Under the pieces are notes generated by a model. The model saw only the letters and a list, made by a program, of their open reading frames with translations. It did not search any database and was not told the origin of the DNA. From contig CANQEW010000004.1 of the NCBI GenBank assembly GCA_947596085.1, forward strand, positions 1 through 64,000: a stretch of 64,000 nt of DNA. The letters run 5' to 3'. A program made the translations under genes and the position numbers. Below, piece by piece: positions 6,838-63,812 of this stretch. This DNA is from an uncultured Clostridia bacterium. GTDB lineage: Bacteria; Bacillota; Clostridia; Christensenellales; Aristaeellaceae. Every line of letters starts with the position of its first letter. The stretch's first letter is position 1.

Positions 6838-9165
6838 TCATTCCACTCCTCGGAAGTAGTGTCCTGTGGTGGTGTTCATCGCGTCCAGCTTCGGCCAATC
6901 CACCTCCGCGCGGGGATCGTTCCCAGCCAGCGCGGCGCGGTGCAGGCGCACGACCGCCTCGACCGGATCGCCCGGCTCCAGCAGCAGCCGCCAGGCGCCA
7001 GCGGCGGGCAGCGAGGCCCGGCGGCGCAGCAGCATCAGCGTGGCGGAGTTCAGAAGCTGAATCGTGCAGCCCTCGTCCGATGCGACGCGCTTGAGCGGGA
7101 AGCGCGCGCCCAGCCGGTCGGTCAGCGCCTTCGCGTCGACGCGCTCGTCCGGCGCGCGGCCGTCGCAGCGGCGGCAGTCCCGATGCGGGCCGCGCAGCTG
7201 TTTCGCTGCGCGCAGCGGGCAGTGGCGCAGCTGCATCAGCGGCAGCCGCCCGTAGACGATCAGTTCGCGCGCGCCGCCCAGCGCCTCGATCTGCGCCCGG
7301 TTGAGCTCCACGGAGGGGGTGCAGCGGCGCGCGCCCCAGTCCGCGAGCTGCGCGACGGACAGGTCGTTGGCCACATTGAGCGGATAGTCGCCCACCCGCT
7401 CTCCCGGCCAGTCCAAGCCGAACTGGCCAACGTTGGAAAGCAGCACCCGGCGGATGCGCCCGGCGTTCGCCCACACCCAGTCGCGCAGAGCGCTCAGCGT
7501 CGCTTCGCCCGCCACCGGGGGCAGCGCCAAATCGAAGCGCTCGGGGAGGAGCGCAAGCGCCGCGTCCAGCGCCCGCGCGCGCAGGTCCGCCGGGGCGAAG
7601 GCGGCAAAGTCCGCGCCCGCGTTCAGTGCCCGGCGCAAGATCGACGCGTCGCCGCTCTGAGCGATGAGCTCGGGCCTGTCCCCGGATTGTGCGGGAAGCG
7701 CGGGCAACGCCATCTTCGCGCATGCGTGGGGCGGATTGCGCCGCGCCGCGAGCAGCGTTTCCACGGCGCCGCGCCGCAGCGCGTTCAGCGCGGAGAGCGG
7801 AAGGTAGGCGTTCTCGTCGATCTCCGCCGCCCAGCCGCGCAGCTCGAAGGGCGTATCGCCCAGCTTCGCGATCTGGGAGCGGGCGCGCTCCGGATCGGCG
7901 GGACGGGAGCGCGCGGCCTGCGCGATCTCGCCCTCGGCGAGGGCGGTGTGCGCGCCGTCGCTCAGTTCCAGCAGCGCGGGCTCACCCACCCGCAGCCGCA
8001 GGCGCGCGTCCACGGGGAACTTCCGCCGCTCGCCGGCAAAGGCTTCCCGCAGCGAACGCATCTGCGCCTCCGAGGTCAGCCGGATCAGCGCGTCTCCCCG
8101 CTTCGCGGCGGGCAGGAGCGCCGCGCCGGCGGGGGCCGAGGCCATGCGCACGGGGACGTCCTCGCCGCCCGCCCGGCGCAGAACCAGCGCGTCGCGCTCA
8201 TCCACGGCGGCGGTTAACTCGACTTCTCCGCCCTTCCGGCAGCGGCCGATCTCCACGCCCAGGTGGTTCGGACGCTCCGAATACATCAGCTCGTCCTCCC
8301 GCGCGCCGGGGCCGTAGCCGCGGGTGAAGCCGCCGCGGTTGAACATCTGCGCGAGTTCCCGCTTCGCCGCCTCCGCGTCGAAGCGTTCACCCCGCGCCAT
8401 CGCGTCCAGCGCGGCTCGGTAGACGGAGACCGTCTGCGCCACGTACTCCGGGCGCTTGAGTCGCCCTTCGATCTTGAGGCTGGCGACTCCGGCCCGGGCG
8501 AGCGCGTCCAGGCCGTCCAGGCCGCACAGGTCGCGGGTGGACAGCAGGTAGCCCTCGCGCCCGTTCAGCGCGTACCGCTGGCGGCAGGGCTGGGCGCACA
8601 GGCCGCGATTGCCGCTGCGCCCGCCAATCATCGACGAGAGCAGGCACTGGCCCGAGCAGCTCACGCACAGCGCGCCATGCACGAATACCTCCAGCTCCGC
8701 GCCGAGGCCCGCGCAGCGGGCGATCTCCGCATGGGTCATCTCCCGGGCGAGCACCACGCGCTTGAATCCCTGCTCCGCCAGAAACCGCACGGCCTGCGGG
8801 TTGTGCGCGGCCATCTGGGTGCTGGCGTGCAGGGGCAGCGATGGCGCCATCTCGCGGACGGCGCGCGCGACGCCGAAGTCCTGCACGATCACGCCATCCG
8901 CGCCCGCGCGGCAGATCTCCTCGACGGTCGCCTCAAGCCGGATGAGTTCATCCTGCCGCACCATGGTGTTGAGCGTCACATACACCTTCGCGCCGCGCTG
9001 CTGACAGTAGCGCATGGCGGCGTCCAGCTCGCCCTCGAAGTTGTCCGCGCTCCGGCGGGCGTTGAAGTCGCCCGCGCCCAGGTACACCGCGTCCGCGCCG
9101 CACTGCACCGCCGCGGTCATGGCGGCGGCGCTTCCAGCGGGGGCCAGCAATTCGGGCAGCTTCAA
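6838..9165 (-). CDS. U32 family peptidase / DUF3656 domain protein
   Basis: LPELLAPAGSAAAMTAAVQCGADAVYLG and HGALCVSCSGQCLLSSMIGGRSGNRGLCAQPCRQ motifs; likely TTG start at 9165, overlapping zapA. Confidence 0.88.
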   Translation of the reverse strand: MKLPELLAPAGSAAAMTAAVQCGADAVYLGAGDFNARRSADNFEGELDAAMRYCQQRGAKVYVTLNTMVRQDELIRLEATVEEICRAGADGVIVQDFGVARAVREMAPSLPLHASTQMAAHNPQAVRFLAEQGFKRVVLAREMTHAEIARCAGLGAELEVFVHGALCVSCSGQCLLSSMIGGRSGNRGLCAQPCRQRYALNGREGYLLSTRDLCGLDGLDALARAGVASLKIEGRLKRPEYVAQTVSVYRAALDAMARGERFDAEAAKRELAQMFNRGGFTRGYGPGAREDELMYSERPNHLGVEIGRCRKGGEVELTAAVDERDALVLRRAGGEDVPVRMASAPAGAALLPAAKRGDALIRLTSEAQMRSLREAFAGERRKFPVDARLRLRVGEPALLELSDGAHTALAEGEIAQAARSRPADPERARSQIAKLGDTPFELRGWAAEIDENAYLPLSALNALRRGAVETLLAARRNPPHACAKMALPALPAQSGDRPELIAQSGDASILRRALNAGADFAAFAPADLRARALDAALALLPERFDLALPPVAGEATLSALRDWVWANAGRIRRVLLSNVGQFGLDWPGERVGDYPLNVANDLSVAQLADWGARRCTPSVELNRAQIEALGGARELIVYGRLPLMQLRHCPLRAAKQLRGPHRDCRRCDGRAPDERVDAKALTDRLGARFPLKRVASDEGCTIQLLNSATLMLLRRRASLPAAGAWRLLLEPGDPVEAVVRLHRAALAGNDPRAEVDWPKLDAMNTTTGHYFRGVE

Positions 9166-9434
9166 TCGCGCTTCAGGCGCTCGATCTCGGCGCGCGCCTC
9201 CTCCAGCTCCCTGCGCAGCCTCCGGTTTTCCTCCCGGGACTTCATCATGTCGTCGGCGGCGTTCATTGCCGCGAGCACGGCAAGCTGGCCGCCGGGCAGG
9301 TGCGTGGCCTGGTTGAGTTCGCGCAGTCGGCGGTCGACCCACGCGGCCACGCCCTGCACGTACTCCTCGGAGTCGCGGGTGACAATGGCGTACTCCCGGC
9401 CGGCGATGCGAACCGTGGTTCTGATCTTTTCCAT
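9162..9434 (-). CDS. zapA: cell division protein ZapA-like
   Basis: RTTVRIAGREYAIVTRDSEEYVQGVAAWVDRRL with C-terminal coiled coil; adjacent to U32 peptidase. Confidence 0.85.
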   Translation of the reverse strand: MEKIRTTVRIAGREYAIVTRDSEEYVQGVAAWVDRRLRELNQATHLPGGQLAVLAAMNAADDMMKSREENRRLRRELEEARAEIERLKRD

Positions 9435-43550: not shown

Positions 43551-45533
43551 ATGGATTATCGTACGCTCCATACGAAGACGGTGGCCGATCTGCGGCGCAT
43601 CGCGAAGGAGGAGGGCGTGAAGGTGCCGGCGGGCACGAACAAGGCGCTGCTGGTGCAGATGATCGTGGATCGGCAGGTGGAGAACGCCGCGAACGCCGCG
43701 GCCGCGCGCCCGAAGCCGGCCCCCGCGCCCGAGGCGGTGAAGCCGGAAGAGCGGGGAGAATCCGCCCCCGCGAAGGCGGCCGCCGCTTCGGACGAGCCCG
43801 CCCCCGCGAGGGCGGTTGCCCCTTCGAATGAGCCCGCGCCGGTTGCGCGCCCGCGCGGACGCCGGCCGGCGGCGCGGCAGGCGGAAGCCGCGGAACCGGA
43901 GAGAGCGCCGGTGAAAGCGGCCGCCGGACAGGAGGGTGGAACCGCGGAGGCGGAGGCCCCCGCCGCTTCCACACTGGCCGCTGCACCGGAGGCGGTTCCG
44001 GCGGCGGAGAATCCTGCCGTTTCTCCGGCGGTACCCGCCGCGCCGCAGGTTGCGCGGCCCTATCAGCGGCAGATGAGCACCCAGCAGCGCATGGGCGCGC
44101 GTATCCAGCCGCAGCAGGGCGGCTATCGCCCGCAGCCACGCCCCGCACAACTCGGCAGGCCCGCGCGCTTCAGCGCGGAGAGCGCGGTAAGCCGCCCGAC
44201 TCGCGCCTTTGACGGCAATGCGGGCTTTCGCCGTGTCCCAGGCGAGCAGGGAAGCTATCGCCGCCCTGTCCAGAGCGCGGAATTTCAGCAGAGTGTTGAA
44301 GCCCAGCGGCCAGCGGGCGCTCCCGAGCAGACCGCGCCCGCCGAGGAGCGCCCGGTCAACGCCGCCGTGTCCGAGATGATCGCCAGCGGCGACTTCGGCG
44401 ATGGCGCGGGCATCCTGGAGATCCATGCCGACGGCTATGGCTTTCTGCGCGCGGACAACTACCTGCCCGGCAACCGCGACGTGTACGTCTCCGCGGCGCA
44501 GATCCGGCGCTTCAACCTGCGCACGGGCGACTACGTGGTGGGCAAAACCCGCCCCCAGCAGATGGGCGACCGCTCGGTGGGATTGATCTACATCAACGAG
44601 GTTAATGGCCAGTCGCCGGACATGGCGCGCAGCCGCCGGCCCTTCGATTCGCTGATTCCGGTGTACCCGGACGAACGCCTGCGCATGGAGCGCCCCGGCG
44701 TGAACGACATTTCGCTGCGCATCATCGACATGATCGTGCCCATCGGCAAGGGCCAGCGCGGCATGATCGTCTCCCAGCCCAAGGCGGGCAAGACCACGCT
44801 TTTGAAGAAGATCGCCAACGCCATCACCGCCAACAATCCGGACGTGCACCTGATCGTACTGCTGATCGACGAGCGGCCCGAGGAGGTCACGGACATGCAG
44901 CGCTCGATCCAGGGCGAGGTGGTCTACTCCACGTTCGACGAGGCGCCGGAGAACCACACCCGCGTTTCGGAGATGGTGCTGGAGCGCGCCCAGCGGCTGG
45001 TGGAACTGGGCAAGGACGTCGTTGTGCTGCTGGATTCCATCACGCGCCTGGCGCGCGCATACAACCTGGTGATCCCGCCCACGGGGCGCTCGCTGTCGGG
45101 CGGCCTCGATCCGGGGGCACTGTACAAGCCCAAGCGCTTCTTTGGAGCGGCGCGCAACATCGAAAACGGCGGCAGCCTCACCATCATCGCCACCGCGCTG
45201 GTGGACACGGGCAGCCGGATGGATGACATCATCTTCGAAGAATTCAAGGGAACGGGCAACATGGAGCTGCACCTCGACCGCAGCCTGTCCGACCGCCGCA
45301 TCTTTCCGGCGATCGACATGTATCGCTCCAGCACGCGGCGCGAGGAACTGCTGCTGACGAAGGAGGAACTGGACGGCGTGTATCAGGTGCGCAAAATGCT
45401 CTCCAAGGGCAGCCCCCAGGAGGCCGCCGAGCAGCTCATTTCTCTGATTGAAAAGACGAAGACCAACGAGGAATTCTTTCAGAAGCTCAAGGGCTGGCTG
45501 AGCGTATACGAAAAGGAAGGCTTTAAGATGTAA
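43551..45533 (+). CDS. rho: transcription termination factor Rho with ~230-aa low-complexity N-terminal insert
   Basis: Rho_N-like [33 protein letters not shown]-binding; [36 protein letters not shown]. Confidence 0.95.
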
Positions 45534-54826: not shown

Positions 54827-55235
54827 AATGAACTTGGCGCAGCAGAACAGTTTCTCGGAGAAGATATTCATGCCGCGATGCCGGTTCCCAGTTGTCTTGC
54901 GCTTTCGCGGCTCTTGCTCTGCTATATTACCGAATGACAGTCTCCGGCGCAATGCGGTGTCTCTCGCCCGCATCAATCTTCATCTTCTCCGTGGGAAAAT
55001 AAATGCGGAAAGCTCTCCGCAAGAGGACAGTACCCTTGTATTTTTGTTTTCGAACCGCCTGACCTGGATACAATGGGCTTCGATGCTCATCCGTTCTTCT
55101 CACATATTTCATGCGGCCGCATAGCGCCAGGGAAAGCAAACCAGGGGATGCAATTTCACGGAATTTCCGGCGTTTTGGATGCAATCTGGCCCAAAGGGAG
55201 TGCGGGTTGTTCAAAGGGCGTATTTGAACTGTGAG

Positions 55236-55292
55236 TTCATTGTTTCCGGCAGCGCCATGCGTTAGAATATATCTGTCGCCGGAAATAATGAA
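55236..55292. repeat. 57-bp promoter-bearing palindromic repeat, copy A
   Basis: ttcattgtttccggcag...ctgtcgccggaaataatgaa; internal TTGTTT-17-TAGAAT; ~matches copy B at 58698-58754. Confidence 0.8.
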
Positions 55293-55293
55293 T

Positions 55294-55395
55294 CCCCGCC
55301 ATGTCGCGGATAGTGTGCCTTTTGCGCACCCACGACTGAAACGGCGCACAGCGCCGGCGAACGGGGAGTGGGAAACCAATTGCGCTTCAGTAAAG
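55294..55395 (+). repeat. conserved structured leader repeat, copy A
   Basis: ccccgccatgtcgcggatagtgtgccttttgcgcacccacgactgaaacggcgcacagcgccggcgaacggggag... near-identical to 58947-59055. Confidence 0.8.
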
Positions 55396-55439: not shown

Positions 55440-56204
55440 ATGCAAGCAAATCAAATTTTTAATGCGGCTCCAGGAACAATAATCTTGTTGTATGGCGAAA
55501 AGCATAATATAAAGGAATTGACTCATAGCATTCAATCTTCAATGCCAGATGATTTCAAAGCGCGAACTTCCTTGAATTCCTGTTCGATTGTTTCCATGGA
55601 TATGTGTGGGGATGAAAAGCCCAATAGCTTTCATGACCTGGCCGTTCTTTGCTCAAGACTTGTCATCTCTGCCGGGAGGCGAAGCCACTTTGAAGGATTG
55701 CTGATGTTGAACATTTCCGATCTCATCACTCGCCCCGAAGACGCCGATCGTCTGAAAGCCCTGGGAGAAATTCTTTCTTTGAAAAATGGATTGGCATCAA
55801 AATGTATAACGCTTCTCTACGGACCAACAAAGGAAAAGGAGATACTCATTGCCGCTGAGGACCTGGACTTTGACGGCAAACTCAGGGTCAGGCGCTTTGA
55901 AGGAACCAGCCAGGAGGATTCATTGCAGGCTCTGTTGGCCCACACCCATATGAGCTGCACAGATAAACGCACGATGAGATTGCTCCAGTCCACCATCGAT
56001 GAAATGCAGGAGCAGCGCCAATTCGATCCCCTCCGTTTCTTCCAGTCCTGTGAAGCACAGGAGGGAATCATCACAAAGGACAGCGTTTGGGCTGCTCTGA
56101 ATGATCCGTATTCCTATATCAACCGAATGAAGAAGGCCATGCCGCTGTCGCAGCGGGATGAAAAAAACACAGTCCACCGTATCGGATTTCAAAGCAATCA
56201 ATGA
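55440..56204 (+). CDS. hypothetical protein, first gene of the VirD4-like operon
   Basis: ATG 55440 with strong SD aaaggaggaaaa; 254-aa ORF; 10 bp before VirD4-like gene. Confidence 0.75.
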   Translation: MQANQIFNAAPGTIILLYGEKHNIKELTHSIQSSMPDDFKARTSLNSCSIVSMDMCGDEKPNSFHDLAVLCSRLVISAGRRSHFEGLLMLNISDLITRPEDADRLKALGEILSLKNGLASKCITLLYGPTKEKEILIAAEDLDFDGKLRVRRFEGTSQEDSLQALLAHTHMSCTDKRTMRLLQSTIDEMQEQRQFDPLRFFQSCEAQEGIITKDSVWAALNDPYSYINRMKKAMPLSQRDEKNTVHRIGFQSNQ

Positions 56205-56213
56205 GAGGGGGAG

Positions 56214-57668
56214 ATGCGAATGTATTATGAAAAATACCTGAATTACCTCTACTCTTCTTCTGGATGGTCTTCGGATGAAAATTTTTCCCAGACTCCCGGC
56301 TGCCTGACTGGGGCGTGGGACCAACCGCATGCCGAAGGCGGTGTAGTCCTCTCAAGCTATGACGGAAAAGTAACCGTTGACGGTGGCGATGAATGCCGTC
56401 ATGTACTGGTGATTGGAGCGACTGGCACGGGCAAATCCCGCCTGGTTATAATGCCTTCGCTGCTATACTCGCTGACCGCAGAGAACAGGCGCTCTTTCGT
56501 AGTTTTCGATGTGAAGGGGGAACTGGAAGCTGAAACCGCTCCCATTGCAGGGAAAATGGGCTACAAACTCCGCAGAATCGATTTCCGAAATCCGGAGAAC
56601 GGAGACGGATGGAATCCCTTCCAAAAAATCAACCGTCTCTATAAGGAGGGTGGAAAAAGCAGAAATAAAGCGCGGAAACTGCTGGAGGATATGATCGCCA
56701 GCATCTTCACTGATGGCGAGTGTTCAAAGATGGATCCTTACTGGAAGAATACTTCGGCCAATCTCTTCCGGGGTGTCTGCGCAACGATTTGGGAAAAGGG
56801 GGAAGATCTTTCTCTTTCCGAGATCCTGAAGCTGTGCAATTCAATTCCCGGGGATAAAGATTACGACCACCGGTGTCTGTTGTTCCAGGCCGTCGACGAC
56901 CTCCAAGACGATTCCACAGCCCGAAGAAATCTGGAGGGTTTTCGAAATGCCTCTAGCATTACGCGAGGGAACATACTTTCCTCCTTCAATACATACCTGT
57001 CGCACTTTACTTCGCGAGACGACATCATGGATATGATATCCAGCCCGAGTTCCCTCGACTTTCAGGAAATCGGCATGAGGCCTACGGTTTTATACATCAG
57101 CCTGCCAGACGATTCGACCGCACTGGGGTCCCTTCAGTGTATGCTGCTCACGCAACTCATGCAGGATTTAAATGAGTGCGCGATTCGAAATGGGGGCGTC
57201 CTTCCCGTCCGGACGGAGATGTATCTGGATGAGGTATGCAACATTCATCCCGCCATACCATCGTTGGAGACAGCGCTGACAATTTCCCGATCGAGAGGCA
57301 TACGGTACATCCTGGCGATCCAAAGTTATAATCAACTCGTCGGCGTATATGGCCAGGCGGCTGAAACCATCGCGGCAAACTGTTCGACGTGGATCGCTCT
57401 GAATATCTCCAAGGATGAAACCTTCCGCTCCAAGTTGAGCCAGCTGTGCGGTGAAAATGCGCTTGGCAATTCTCTGATCACCCCGTCCCAGCTTGCTCTG
57501 CTTCGATACGAGGAAGGAATCGTCATTCGAGAGCGTTCCGCACCGTATTTTTCACGCTTCGATGACCTGAGCAAGATTCAACAACGGCTCAAACTGTTGG
57601 AGAAAGATGGCAGCAGAGAGATTGGAGGAAGAACCTTACTGCGCCCAAGAAGACGACTCACCGCATAG
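56214..57668 (+). CDS. soluble VirD4/TraG-like (type IV coupling protein family) ATPase
   Basis: Walker A VIGATGTGKSRLVIMPSLLYSL, FVVFDVKGELEAETA, NPF, Walker B EMYLDEVCNI, RSRGIRYILAIQSYNQL; no N-terminal TM segments. Confidence 0.85.
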   Translation: MRMYYEKYLNYLYSSSGWSSDENFSQTPGCLTGAWDQPHAEGGVVLSSYDGKVTVDGGDECRHVLVIGATGTGKSRLVIMPSLLYSLTAENRRSFVVFDVKGELEAETAPIAGKMGYKLRRIDFRNPENGDGWNPFQKINRLYKEGGKSRNKARKLLEDMIASIFTDGECSKMDPYWKNTSANLFRGVCATIWEKGEDLSLSEILKLCNSIPGDKDYDHRCLLFQAVDDLQDDSTARRNLEGFRNASSITRGNILSSFNTYLSHFTSRDDIMDMISSPSSLDFQEIGMRPTVLYISLPDDSTALGSLQCMLLTQLMQDLNECAIRNGGVLPVRTEMYLDEVCNIHPAIPSLETALTISRSRGIRYILAIQSYNQLVGVYGQAAETIAANCSTWIALNISKDETFRSKLSQLCGENALGNSLITPSQLALLRYEEGIVIRERSAPYFSRFDDLSKIQQRLKLLEKDGSREIGGRTLLRPRRRLTA

Positions 57669-57751
57669 TCGACTGCCCGGGAGCGCATCTCGGGTCCTTT
57701 CCCCCATCAATGCAACCTTCGGGGATAACTTCAACGGACAAGGAGGAAGGC

Positions 57752-58633
57752 ATGTTGGAAGAAGCGGATTTTGTTGAGAAGGATAGTTCTGTCAACAACC
57801 CAATGAGCGATACTGTCGATTCGGTACAGCAATATCTGAAGGAAATCAGCCGGTATCCTTTGCTGACTATGAACGAGGAAACAGACTTGGCAAAGCGAAT
57901 TGAAGCGGGGGATGCAACCGCCAGGGAAAAATTCATCGAATGCAATTTGCGTCTGGTCGTATCCATTGCCAGAAGCTTTGCCCACCGCGGCCTCCCTTTT
58001 TCTGATTTGCTTCAGGAAGGAAATATGGGACTGTATCATGCCGTCGATAAGTTCGACTGGAGGAAGGGATACAAGTTTTCCACATATGCAACGTGGTGGA
58101 TCAGGCAGGCCATGTTGCGTGCGATTGCGGATCAATCTCGGATTGTGCGCATCCCCATTTACATGTCAGAAACAATCGCTCGATTCAACCGATACAGGAG
58201 ACAATATGAACTTGAAAATGAATGTGAACCTACATCCGCCGAAATCGCCAACGCAATGGGCCTTCCAGAATCCAAAGTGAACGAAATCCTTGTGTTTGAA
58301 CAGGAGCCGGTTTCATTGGAAACACGTGTCGGCGAAGATGAGGATGGTACGCTGGGCGACTTCATCGCGGACGGCAAAGCTCAGGATCCGGAAGAAACTG
58401 TGATTCATAACATTGTAGTTGAGCGCCTTTATGCCGCCCTGGAAACGCTCACACCGCGTGAGAAGGACGTCCTTCTGCTGAGATACGGCCTGATGGGAGG
58501 CAGTCCGCTGACACTGGAAGAGGTGGGTAAAAAATTCCAGGTTACCCGTGAGCGAGCACGTCAGATCGAAGCGATGGCAATCCGCAAGCTCCAACATCCT
58601 TCCAGAAAGTCAATGTTGATTTTTCCGAACTGA
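57752..58633 (+). CDS. RpoD-like (group 2) sigma-70 family sigma factor
   Basis: NLRLVVSIARSFAHRGLPFSDLLQEGNMGLYHAVDKFDWRKGYKFSTYATWWIRQAMLRAIADQSR; region 4 TLEEVGKKFQVTRERARQIEAMAIRKLQHPSR; SD aaggagg. Confidence 0.93.
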   Translation: MLEEADFVEKDSSVNNPMSDTVDSVQQYLKEISRYPLLTMNEETDLAKRIEAGDATAREKFIECNLRLVVSIARSFAHRGLPFSDLLQEGNMGLYHAVDKFDWRKGYKFSTYATWWIRQAMLRAIADQSRIVRIPIYMSETIARFNRYRRQYELENECEPTSAEIANAMGLPESKVNEILVFEQEPVSLETRVGEDEDGTLGDFIADGKAQDPEETVIHNIVVERLYAALETLTPREKDVLLLRYGLMGGSPLTLEEVGKKFQVTRERARQIEAMAIRKLQHPSRKSMLIFPN

Positions 58634-58697
58634 TCCTCGATTCATTGCCGATACCGATCAAAGACCTCGGTGAAAGGACTGAAAATTGAAACGGCAG

Positions 58698-58754
58698 TTC
58701 ATTGCTTCCGGCAGCGCCATGCATTATAATATACCTGCCGCCGGAAACAATGAA
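58698..58754. repeat. 57-bp promoter-bearing palindromic repeat, copy B
   Basis: ttcattgcttccggcag...ctgccgccggaaacaatgaa; internal TTGCTT-17-TATAAT. Confidence 0.8.
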
Positions 58755-58803
58755 CCCACATGAAAGTCAGATGAAAAAAACAATTATTAAATTAAAAAAT
58801 GGG

Positions 58804-58832
58804 TTGACAAGACCAGATGATTGCGATATAAT
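58804..58832 (+). promoter_or_regulatory. perfect-consensus sigma70 promoter TTGACA-17-TATAAT
   Basis: TTGACA 58804-58809, 17 nt, TATAAT 58827-58832. Confidence 0.9.
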
Positions 58833-58838
58833 GAAATC

Positions 58839-58922
58839 ACCTTAAAGGGAGAGAGCCTTTTGATAAGCAGATGACAGTGGGATAGCTGTATCTGTCTGCT
58901 CATCAAAAGGCTCTCTCTTTTT
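58839..58922 (+). ncRNA. short hairpin RNA with own promoter and terminator (~85 nt)
   Basis: 16-bp perfect stem gagagagccttttgat (58849-58864) / atcaaaaggctctctc (58902-58917) enclosing a nested hairpin and followed by a T-run. Confidence 0.65.
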
Positions 58923-58946
58923 GTACCTTGAAAACTAAATAAAACG

Positions 58947-59055
58947 AATCCCTGCCATGTCGTGGATAGTGTGCCTTTTGCGCGCCCACGACTGAAACGG
59001 CGCACAGCGCCGGCGAGCGGGGAGGGAAACCCAGTTGTACTTCAGTAAAAAATGC
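58947..59055 (+). repeat. conserved structured leader repeat, copy B
   Basis: aatccctgccatgtcgtggatagtgtgccttttgcgcgcccacgactgaaacggcgcacagcgccggcgagcggggag... matches 55294-55395. Confidence 0.8.
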
Positions 59056-59226: not shown

Positions 59227-59427
59227 ATGAAATACTGTTCCGACCCCACCGCTAACATGGCCATCGGCAATCTCATGAAGGAATGGAATCGACTGTCAAA
59301 AATCGCTGACAGAATCCGTGAAGATCCTTATTCCGAGTGGGCGGAGGTGCAACGCCGCCGCTTTACCGGAATATACAAGCGCCTTCTGGACGATACTGCA
59401 GGATCGCCCAAATCGAAGGCGTCCTGA
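59227..59427 (+). CDS. small hypothetical protein (66 aa)
   Basis: ATG 59227 after aaaggagg; MKYCSDPTANMAIGNLMKEWNRLSKIADRIREDPYSEWAEVQRRRFTGIYKRLL. Confidence 0.6.
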   Translation: MKYCSDPTANMAIGNLMKEWNRLSKIADRIREDPYSEWAEVQRRRFTGIYKRLLDDTAGSPKSKAS

Positions 59428-61528: not shown

Positions 61529-61599
61529 GTGGCAATCCCTCCTTTACGAAACAGGTCCGTTTCATTGCACTGTGTTATCTGAGCAGATCAAACATGCCA

Positions 61600-61641
61600 G
61601 AGGTTTCCCCTTTACCGACCCCGATGAAGGGGAAACCTCTC
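61600..61641. repeat. 14-bp perfect inverted repeat upstream of the DUF3232-like gene
   Basis: agaggtttcccctt-taccgaccccgatg-aaggggaaacctct. Confidence 0.75.
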
Positions 61642-63278: not shown

Positions 63279-63812
63279 ATGCGGGATTGTACCAATGCAG
63301 CCATTGATCCTATCGCCACCGGACGCAACATTCTCAGCCTTCGCATGGAGAGAGGCCTCTCCGTCAGAGACATTCAACACTATTTCAATTTCGACGAGCC
63401 GAGAGCCATCTACAAGTGGCAGGCCGGCCAGAGTCTCCCGTCCCTTGATAACCTTTATTCCTTGAGCGCTCTGTTCGACGTCCCCATGGACAGCATCATC
63501 GTCGGTAAAAGATATCGGACCAACTCCATTGAGCCGCAGGATTTATCCTGCGGCTCGCATTTTTTAAGGAAGCCGCTTTGCGAACGGGCGAAGCGGTTTT
63601 ATGTATGTTCAATAAAAGATCACACAGCGAACTTATCCAATTGTGGGTGGACAACCGTTTCTGAACCATTACTGCAAATCCTGGATTCACCCGGTTTGCT
63701 GCCGCAACGAGCCTTCTGCACGACATATAACGCATCGCGAGTTTGTCTTTGGCATTCATGCCAAACCGGTGAAAGTGAGCTTTTTCTTGACAGCGCTGCG
63801 ATCCTGTTTTAA
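63279..63812 (+). CDS. Xre-type HTH transcriptional regulator
   Basis: ATGRNILSLRMERGLSVRDIQHYFNFDEPRAIYKWQAGQSLPSLDNLYSLSALFDVPMDSIIVG; part after ~63530 runs through a terminator. Confidence 0.75.
   Translation: MRDCTNAAIDPIATGRNILSLRMERGLSVRDIQHYFNFDEPRAIYKWQAGQSLPSLDNLYSLSALFDVPMDSIIVGKRYRTNSIEPQDLSCGSHFLRKPLCERAKRFYVCSIKDHTANLSNCGWTTVSEPLLQILDSPGLLPQRAFCTTYNASRVCLWHSCQTGESELFLDSAAILF
63531..63566 (+). terminator. Rho-independent-like terminator
   Basis: gagccgcaggat-tt-atcctgcggctc-gcattttttaa. Confidence 0.8.

Follow-up and report, generated by a model that had tools for sequence, protein, structure and literature searches.

A putative terminator-then-boxA leader upstream of a 66-residue protein gene in an uncultured Clostridia bacterium

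The ~190-bp segment that splits one of two copies of a repeated control region in an uncultured Clostridia bacterium (64,000 nucleotides of contig CANQEW010000004.1, the whole stretch analysed and hereafter the window) is best read as a control segment within the leader of an accessory gene, a 66-aa ORF. It would act as an attenuator followed by a boxA, by which the polymerases that read through become armed for a long leader; we give this reading a probability of roughly 0.6. The first-pass annotation had proposed for this segment a mobile non-coding RNA cassette, an attenuator, or an RNA partner of the adjacent sigma factor/ATPase module, and the attenuator is the one favoured by the comparative evidence. 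The elements concerned are the following.

55234–55295, plus strand: left block of copy A, a palindromic operator with promoter P1-A (repeat search, promoter scan)
55287–55368, plus strand: right block of copy A, a structured leader contiguous with P1-A (predicted three-way junction)
55440–56204, plus strand: ORF257 (254–257 aa), the gene served by copy A (no Pfam/NCBIfam match)
56214–57668, plus strand: VirD4/TraG-like ATPase of the T4SS coupling-protein family, CD1115-like (domain match)
57710–58633, plus strand: RpoD-like sigma-70 factor (domain match)
58686–58757, plus strand: left block of copy B, a palindromic operator with promoter P1-B (repeat search, promoter scan)
58804–58832, plus strand: promoter P2, TTGACA at 58804–58809 and TATAAT at 58827–58832, spacer of 17 (promoter scan)
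58844–58922, plus strand: long-stem hairpin of the intrinsic-terminator type, putative attenuator (inverted repeat, folding)
58923–58936, plus strand: boxA-like element GTACCTTGAAAACT (motif as in the rRNA leaders and spacers of the family)
58943–59024, plus strand: right block of copy B, a structured leader (predicted three-way junction)
59227–59427, plus strand: 66-aa ORF, the gene that the leader serves (predicted all-helical; member of no known family)
63279–63812, plus strand: Xre-type regulator, candidate binder of the palindromic operator (domain match, neighbourhood)

The repeat search in the window aligned the left blocks (55224–55295 with 58686–58757) at 85% identity and the right blocks (55287–55368 with 58943–59024) at 94%, and in the global alignment copy A differs from copy B by a single gap of ~194 bp. 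The split described in the first-pass annotation is therefore real, with operator and leader blocks contiguous in copy A and a ~190-bp segment between them in copy B. Its term "repeat halves" was misleading, since these genuine repeats are an operator-promoter on the left and a separate structured leader on the right. The segment absent from copy A is also AT-rich: its GC content is 34% (27% in 58758–58830), whereas the upstream gene has 49% and the window as a whole 63%. A three-way junction is predicted for the leader block in all four known copies (A, B, and those of the related genomes G062 and G099). This block has a 21-nt core, CTGAAACGGCGCACAGCGCCG, which does not differ between copies A and B and two other genomes; the core pattern was not found in the viral contigs searched.

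The perfect hexamers of P2 hold up: this promoter matches the consensus at 12 of 12 positions and is the sole exact TTGACA-17-TATAAT on both strands of the 64 kb, where ~0.002 would be expected from base composition. Two weaker promoters had escaped the first pass, namely P1-B, about 100 bp upstream of P2 and inside the palindrome of copy B (TTGCTT-17-TATAAT at 58702, with its TATAAT at 58725), and P1-A, inside the palindrome of copy A (TTGTTT-17-TAGAAT at 55240, with its TAGAAT at 55263). Operator-type promoters of the form TTGAACC-nnn-GGTTCAATG are also found upstream of homologues of the 66-aa ORF and of ORF257, and four loci have an Xre gene in the neighbourhood of the 66-aa ORF. P2 is constitutive in appearance, and P1 is probably under Xre control.

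The hairpin that follows P2 is ~79 nt long, with arms of 28 nt that are 89% complementary. The predicted fold of 58838–58924 has an energy of −48.2 kcal/mol, whereas shuffled sequences average −21.1 (z = −8.95) and none of 200 does as well; a U5 run (58918–58922) comes directly after the stem. The window thus presents the hallmark of an intrinsic terminator, a stable hairpin with an immediate U-tract. The first-pass annotation had correctly seen both the hairpin with its T-run and an RNA of ~85 nt (the transcript is predicted to run from ~58839 to ~58923); its 16-bp stem was too short, as the arms span 28 nt and an apical stem continues beyond a 3′ bulge. Beside the U-tract, the lower stem (GGGAGAGAGCC / GGCUCUCUC) has a mixed, purine/pyrimidine-rich composition rather than a GC-rich one, which makes the strength of the terminator uncertain. 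The hairpin is absent from the list of a simple terminator scan, a method that limits stem and loop sizes, and no mutually exclusive antiterminator structure is evident in the window. The Rfam search suggested at first returned no family above the gathering threshold in the window, and the sub-threshold matches (SpF19 and microRNAs) are generic hairpins.

Directly after the U-tract stands an element that had gone unnoticed, GTACCTTGAAAACT, whose motif occurs once in the 64-kb window, exactly behind the hairpin. The window's own assembly has no 16S match, and the element was compared instead with ten rRNA operons from three near-complete genomes of the family (G163, G132, and G026). Their 16S leaders carry CCTTGAAAACGATACAG in 10/10 cases, a little downstream of a strong promoter and a short hairpin; their 16S–23S spacers carry GCACCTTGAMAACTGCACA, again in 10/10. 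CCTTGAMAAC is common to the 16S leaders and spacers of these three genomes and to the window (at 58926), and in locus L006 the form found behind the hairpin (CGCACCTTGACAACTG) is the same as that of the rRNA spacers. Since GTACCTTGAAAACT is the same motif as in the family rRNA leaders and spacers, it is, by its sequence, a boxA of the rrn type.

Elements of this kind are known chiefly from rRNA operons and lambdoid phages. They bind NusB–S10, and they also act outside rRNA operons (PMC10931766, PMC5725501, PMC7862264). In the window's genome (G000) nusB was found above the cut-off, and rho is present in the window itself as a long open frame of 663 aa (43560–45491). In viral contigs, the boxA 21-mer is present in four different contexts, none of which shows an obvious hairpin like that of the window.

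The same arrangement is kept in relatives despite divergent sequence. When 301 genomes of the family were searched at the DNA level, two of them, G062 and G099, gave matches spanning the hairpin and the leader. The G099 locus reads ORF257, VirD4, operator promoter P1, TTGACA-17-TATAGT, hairpin, U5, boxA, leader block, and 66-aa ORF, and is syntenic with the window except that it has no sigma gene; the sequence of the hairpin arms is only partly common to the two. Between its 66-aa ORF and its Xre gene, G099 encodes a DUF7788/DUF2828 protein (L041:5941-7239), where the window has other genes. In G118 the hairpin and boxA precede ORF257–VirD4, the place held in the window by the bare copy A. The order promoter, hairpin, U5–6, and GYACCTTGAMAACT is found in G000, G062, G095, G099, and G118. 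Another mobile or phage-like region of the family, in G024, contains a terminator-type hairpin followed by a boxA at two places (L054:7590-7730 and 9100-9180; GTACCTTGAAAACTG; GCGCACCTTGACAACTG), each before a gene or operon. With the G024 region included, the succession of putative terminator and boxA is a recurring design in the family.

The 66-aa ORF has matches in 18 of the 301 family genomes, the window's own included, and upstream of most homologues lie a promoter and a hairpin with its U-tract, in one of two leader styles. In the first, a boxA follows the U-tract (the window, G062, G095, and G099, as well as G118 for ORF257), a type represented by only five loci, all from MAG assemblies. 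In the second there is no boxA, and the ribosome-binding site comes soon after the U-tract. Equivalent hairpins are present in L005, L006, L008, and L010, while two further homologues (L101 and L103) show the same promoter, a short 5′ hairpin and a long terminator-type hairpin; the hairpins identified in relatives have a U-tract after the stem. Among 20 homologous 66-aa ORF loci, five have no such hairpin (L012, L017, L020, L027, and L028), and a sixth (L026) is truncated. In L102 and L104, 66-aa-ORF-like genes lie directly 3′ of a tRNA-like sequence and a terminator-type hairpin (upstream of position 1501), with no other promoter evident upstream. In eight of the leaders that have no boxA, a 5′ segment is complementary to the SD/start region of the same leader; when partners are swapped for comparison, the native pairing ranks 1–3 of 11, as it should in a leader that regulates in cis.

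Nine hairpins from relatives, all upstream of homologues of the 66-aa ORF or of ORF257, were used to examine covariation. Two-sided changes affect 15 of 19 pairs, compared to 4–8 in slid controls; the covariation is 0.398 (0.09–0.17 when slid), a score reached by none of 500 shuffles, and in the trimmed MAFFT alignment 71% of the cells are paired, compared to 34–42%. These hairpins are related, and their trimming was guided by the fold; the slid control is therefore the more appropriate of the two, though it too is biased in favour of the structure. No consensus structure emerged when 13 hairpins were aligned naively with MAFFT. A covariance model (R1) built from the nine, hairpins of the no-boxA type plus that of G118, found one match in 101 related genomes, at a 66-aa ORF leader-type locus, and is specific to such loci. 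R1 gave no significant detection on the window hairpin, and a single covariance model for all hairpins was discarded for this reason and for the missing consensus of the 13. The kinship of the window hairpin with the no-boxA hairpins therefore rests on position, shape, and 3′ motif. It shares with the covarying hairpins its position, the long stem, the apical stem, a 3′ bulge with a pyrimidine-rich stretch after it, and the U-tract, and their common descent is probable.

The gene served by this leader, absent from the first-pass annotation, is separated from the boxA by ~290 nt of untranslated RNA. Its 66-aa product is predicted to be all-helical (mean pLDDT of 79). Searches in Pfam, PHROGs, PDB sequences, and by fold gave no useful match, and its assignment as a known antiterminator, toxin, or sigma-region protein was discarded on that account. 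Distant homologues, which have no such leader, occur in viral contigs, and the gene family may therefore be phage-derived. Nearby, ORF257 and the VirD4-like ATPase (55440–57668) form a two-gene unit; 6 of 309 family genomes carry it, and its chromosomal site differs among them. PADLOC reports weak matches of the ATPase to Mad8/HerA and of the nearby sigma factor to MzaA, and the unit is possibly a defence or DNA-handling cassette. The same island encodes a NADAR-domain protein (PF08719; 62243–63064), and an inverted repeat with 19-nt arms, 89% complementary, and a 4-nt loop (AGAGGTTTCCCCTTTACCG) lies between minus-strand ORFs at 61599–61640.

According to the preferred reading, RNA polymerase starting at P2, or at an operator-controlled P1 that would be repressed by Xre, would at once meet the long-stem terminator. 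By default, most transcripts would end there as ~80-nt hairpin RNAs, whereas the polymerases that read through would transcribe the boxA and load NusB–S10. Armed in this way, they would resist termination across the ~290-nt untranslated leader, which would otherwise be open to Rho. As the boxA comes after the terminator, it cannot itself relieve that terminator, and some signal or protein is expected to change the read-through. In the relatives that have no boxA, the leaders are short and the start region would be tucked into a long-range helix instead, which fits the idea that a long untranslated leader is what calls for a boxA.

An unlikely reading, though one with some weight, is that the ~80-nt hairpin RNA is itself the product, an independent, abundant and trans-acting small RNA with a promoter and terminator of its own, and that read-through into the 66-aa ORF is incidental. 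The perfect promoter, the hairpin and U-tract right after the start site, and an apical 3′ motif that is similar across relatives agree with it. However, the hairpin holds its place ahead of the 66-aa ORF from genome to genome although most of its stem sequence has changed, whereas a trans-acting RNA usually keeps a seed; furthermore, the hairpin stands directly before SD or boxA elements and matches no Rfam family.

It is less probable that the hairpin only insulates, as the terminator of an ORF257–VirD4–sigma operon, and that an independent promoter serves the next gene. The hairpin does have a very long stem and follows closely on the sigma gene, and long-stem terminators reportedly resist antitermination in a conjugative plasmid. 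Nevertheless, P2 lies upstream of the hairpin, which is therefore inside the P2 transcript, and equivalent promoter–hairpin pairs occur without such an operon upstream.

More doubtful still is the idea of a conserved, undescribed RNA leader family acting as a sensor of altered RNA polymerase, which would couple a phage-related 66-aa protein to failed termination. The terminator would normally silence the gene, and only a polymerase altered by an antitermination factor, brought for example by an invading phage or element, would pass it, after which the boxA would lock that polymerase in.

The history of the two copies bears on the proposal that copy B received a mobile non-coding RNA cassette. 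In three of the four known places, a hairpin segment stands between the operator promoter and the leader block, and only copy A has them contiguous. In copy A the two block alignments overlap by nine bases, AATGAATCC, of which near-repeats stand at both borders in copy B (AATGAACCC and AACGAATCC). From these border repeats alone, an insertion with target duplication would look identical to a deletion, and it is because of synteny that a deletion between them is preferred. Thus, copy A looks like a deletion derivative rather than the empty site of a mobile insert; this history, which the first-pass annotation had itself set against its reading, is the more likely one. A mobile cassette would account for the low GC and for border near-repeats resembling a target duplication, but the latter equally suit the deletion, and the insert has no other copy in its own genome and no match in phage or plasmid records. 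Instead of at unrelated sites, it is found in other genomes at the same gene and in the same arrangement, with the leader staying before the 66-aa ORF in many genomes and the locus syntenic in G099. The cassette, very unlikely on these grounds, was rejected.

That the hairpin RNA is a guide or partner of the adjacent sigma factor or VirD4-like ATPase is scarcely credible: both genes adjoin in the window, and the hairpin and boxA of G118 precede ORF257–VirD4, but neither a sigma factor gene nor a VirD4 gene is close to the majority of leader-bearing 66-aa ORFs, and the ORF257–VirD4 units of G046, G075, and G345 are without this hairpin.

Among known systems, the rrn boxA/NusB–S10 antitermination leaders share with the window the motif and the succession of strong promoter, hairpin, boxA, and long untranslated structured RNA. 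In the window, however, the hairpin that precedes the boxA is U-tailed and of the terminator type, and the apparent target is a small accessory protein gene. Cases of boxA outside rRNA operons include suhB and a ParE-like toxin gene (PMC5725501) and the CRISPR arrays reported in PMC7862264. They are alike in controlling accessory or regulatory genes; in suhB, though, the boxA overlaps translation initiation, whereas in the window it is ~290 nt upstream of the ORF and directly behind a terminator-type hairpin. Intrinsic-terminator attenuators have the same promoter, conserved hairpin with U-tract, and gene, and several relatives of the window carry the SD-complementary leader segments mentioned above; unlike them, the window leader has no identified ligand, antiterminator structure, or protein, and no Rfam family matches it.

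The bipartite antitermination system conAn of pLS20 (PMC8955417) resembles the locus in its leader RNA element, its small protein gene, and its VirD4 (CD1115-family) setting. On the other hand, the pLS20 control region has no boxA motif and the window has no long conjugation operon downstream. Identity with conAn was rejected, as ConAn1, taken by position only as the first gene of the pLS20 control region (172 aa), is unrelated to the 66-aa ORF, and no conAn2-like RNA match was obtained. Finally, the order promoter, structured RNA, terminator, and gene recalls the leaders of type III toxin–antitoxin systems, in which structured RNA repeats and a terminator separate the promoter from the toxin gene. 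The window, however, has no tandem RNA repeats, and the 66-aa protein shows no endoRNase similarity.

If a terminator followed by a boxA does serve accessory and mobile genes in a family of rumen Clostridia, the antitermination machinery of rRNA has been borrowed there to express genes of islands, and the leader offers a simple, testable system for a gene family of no known function.
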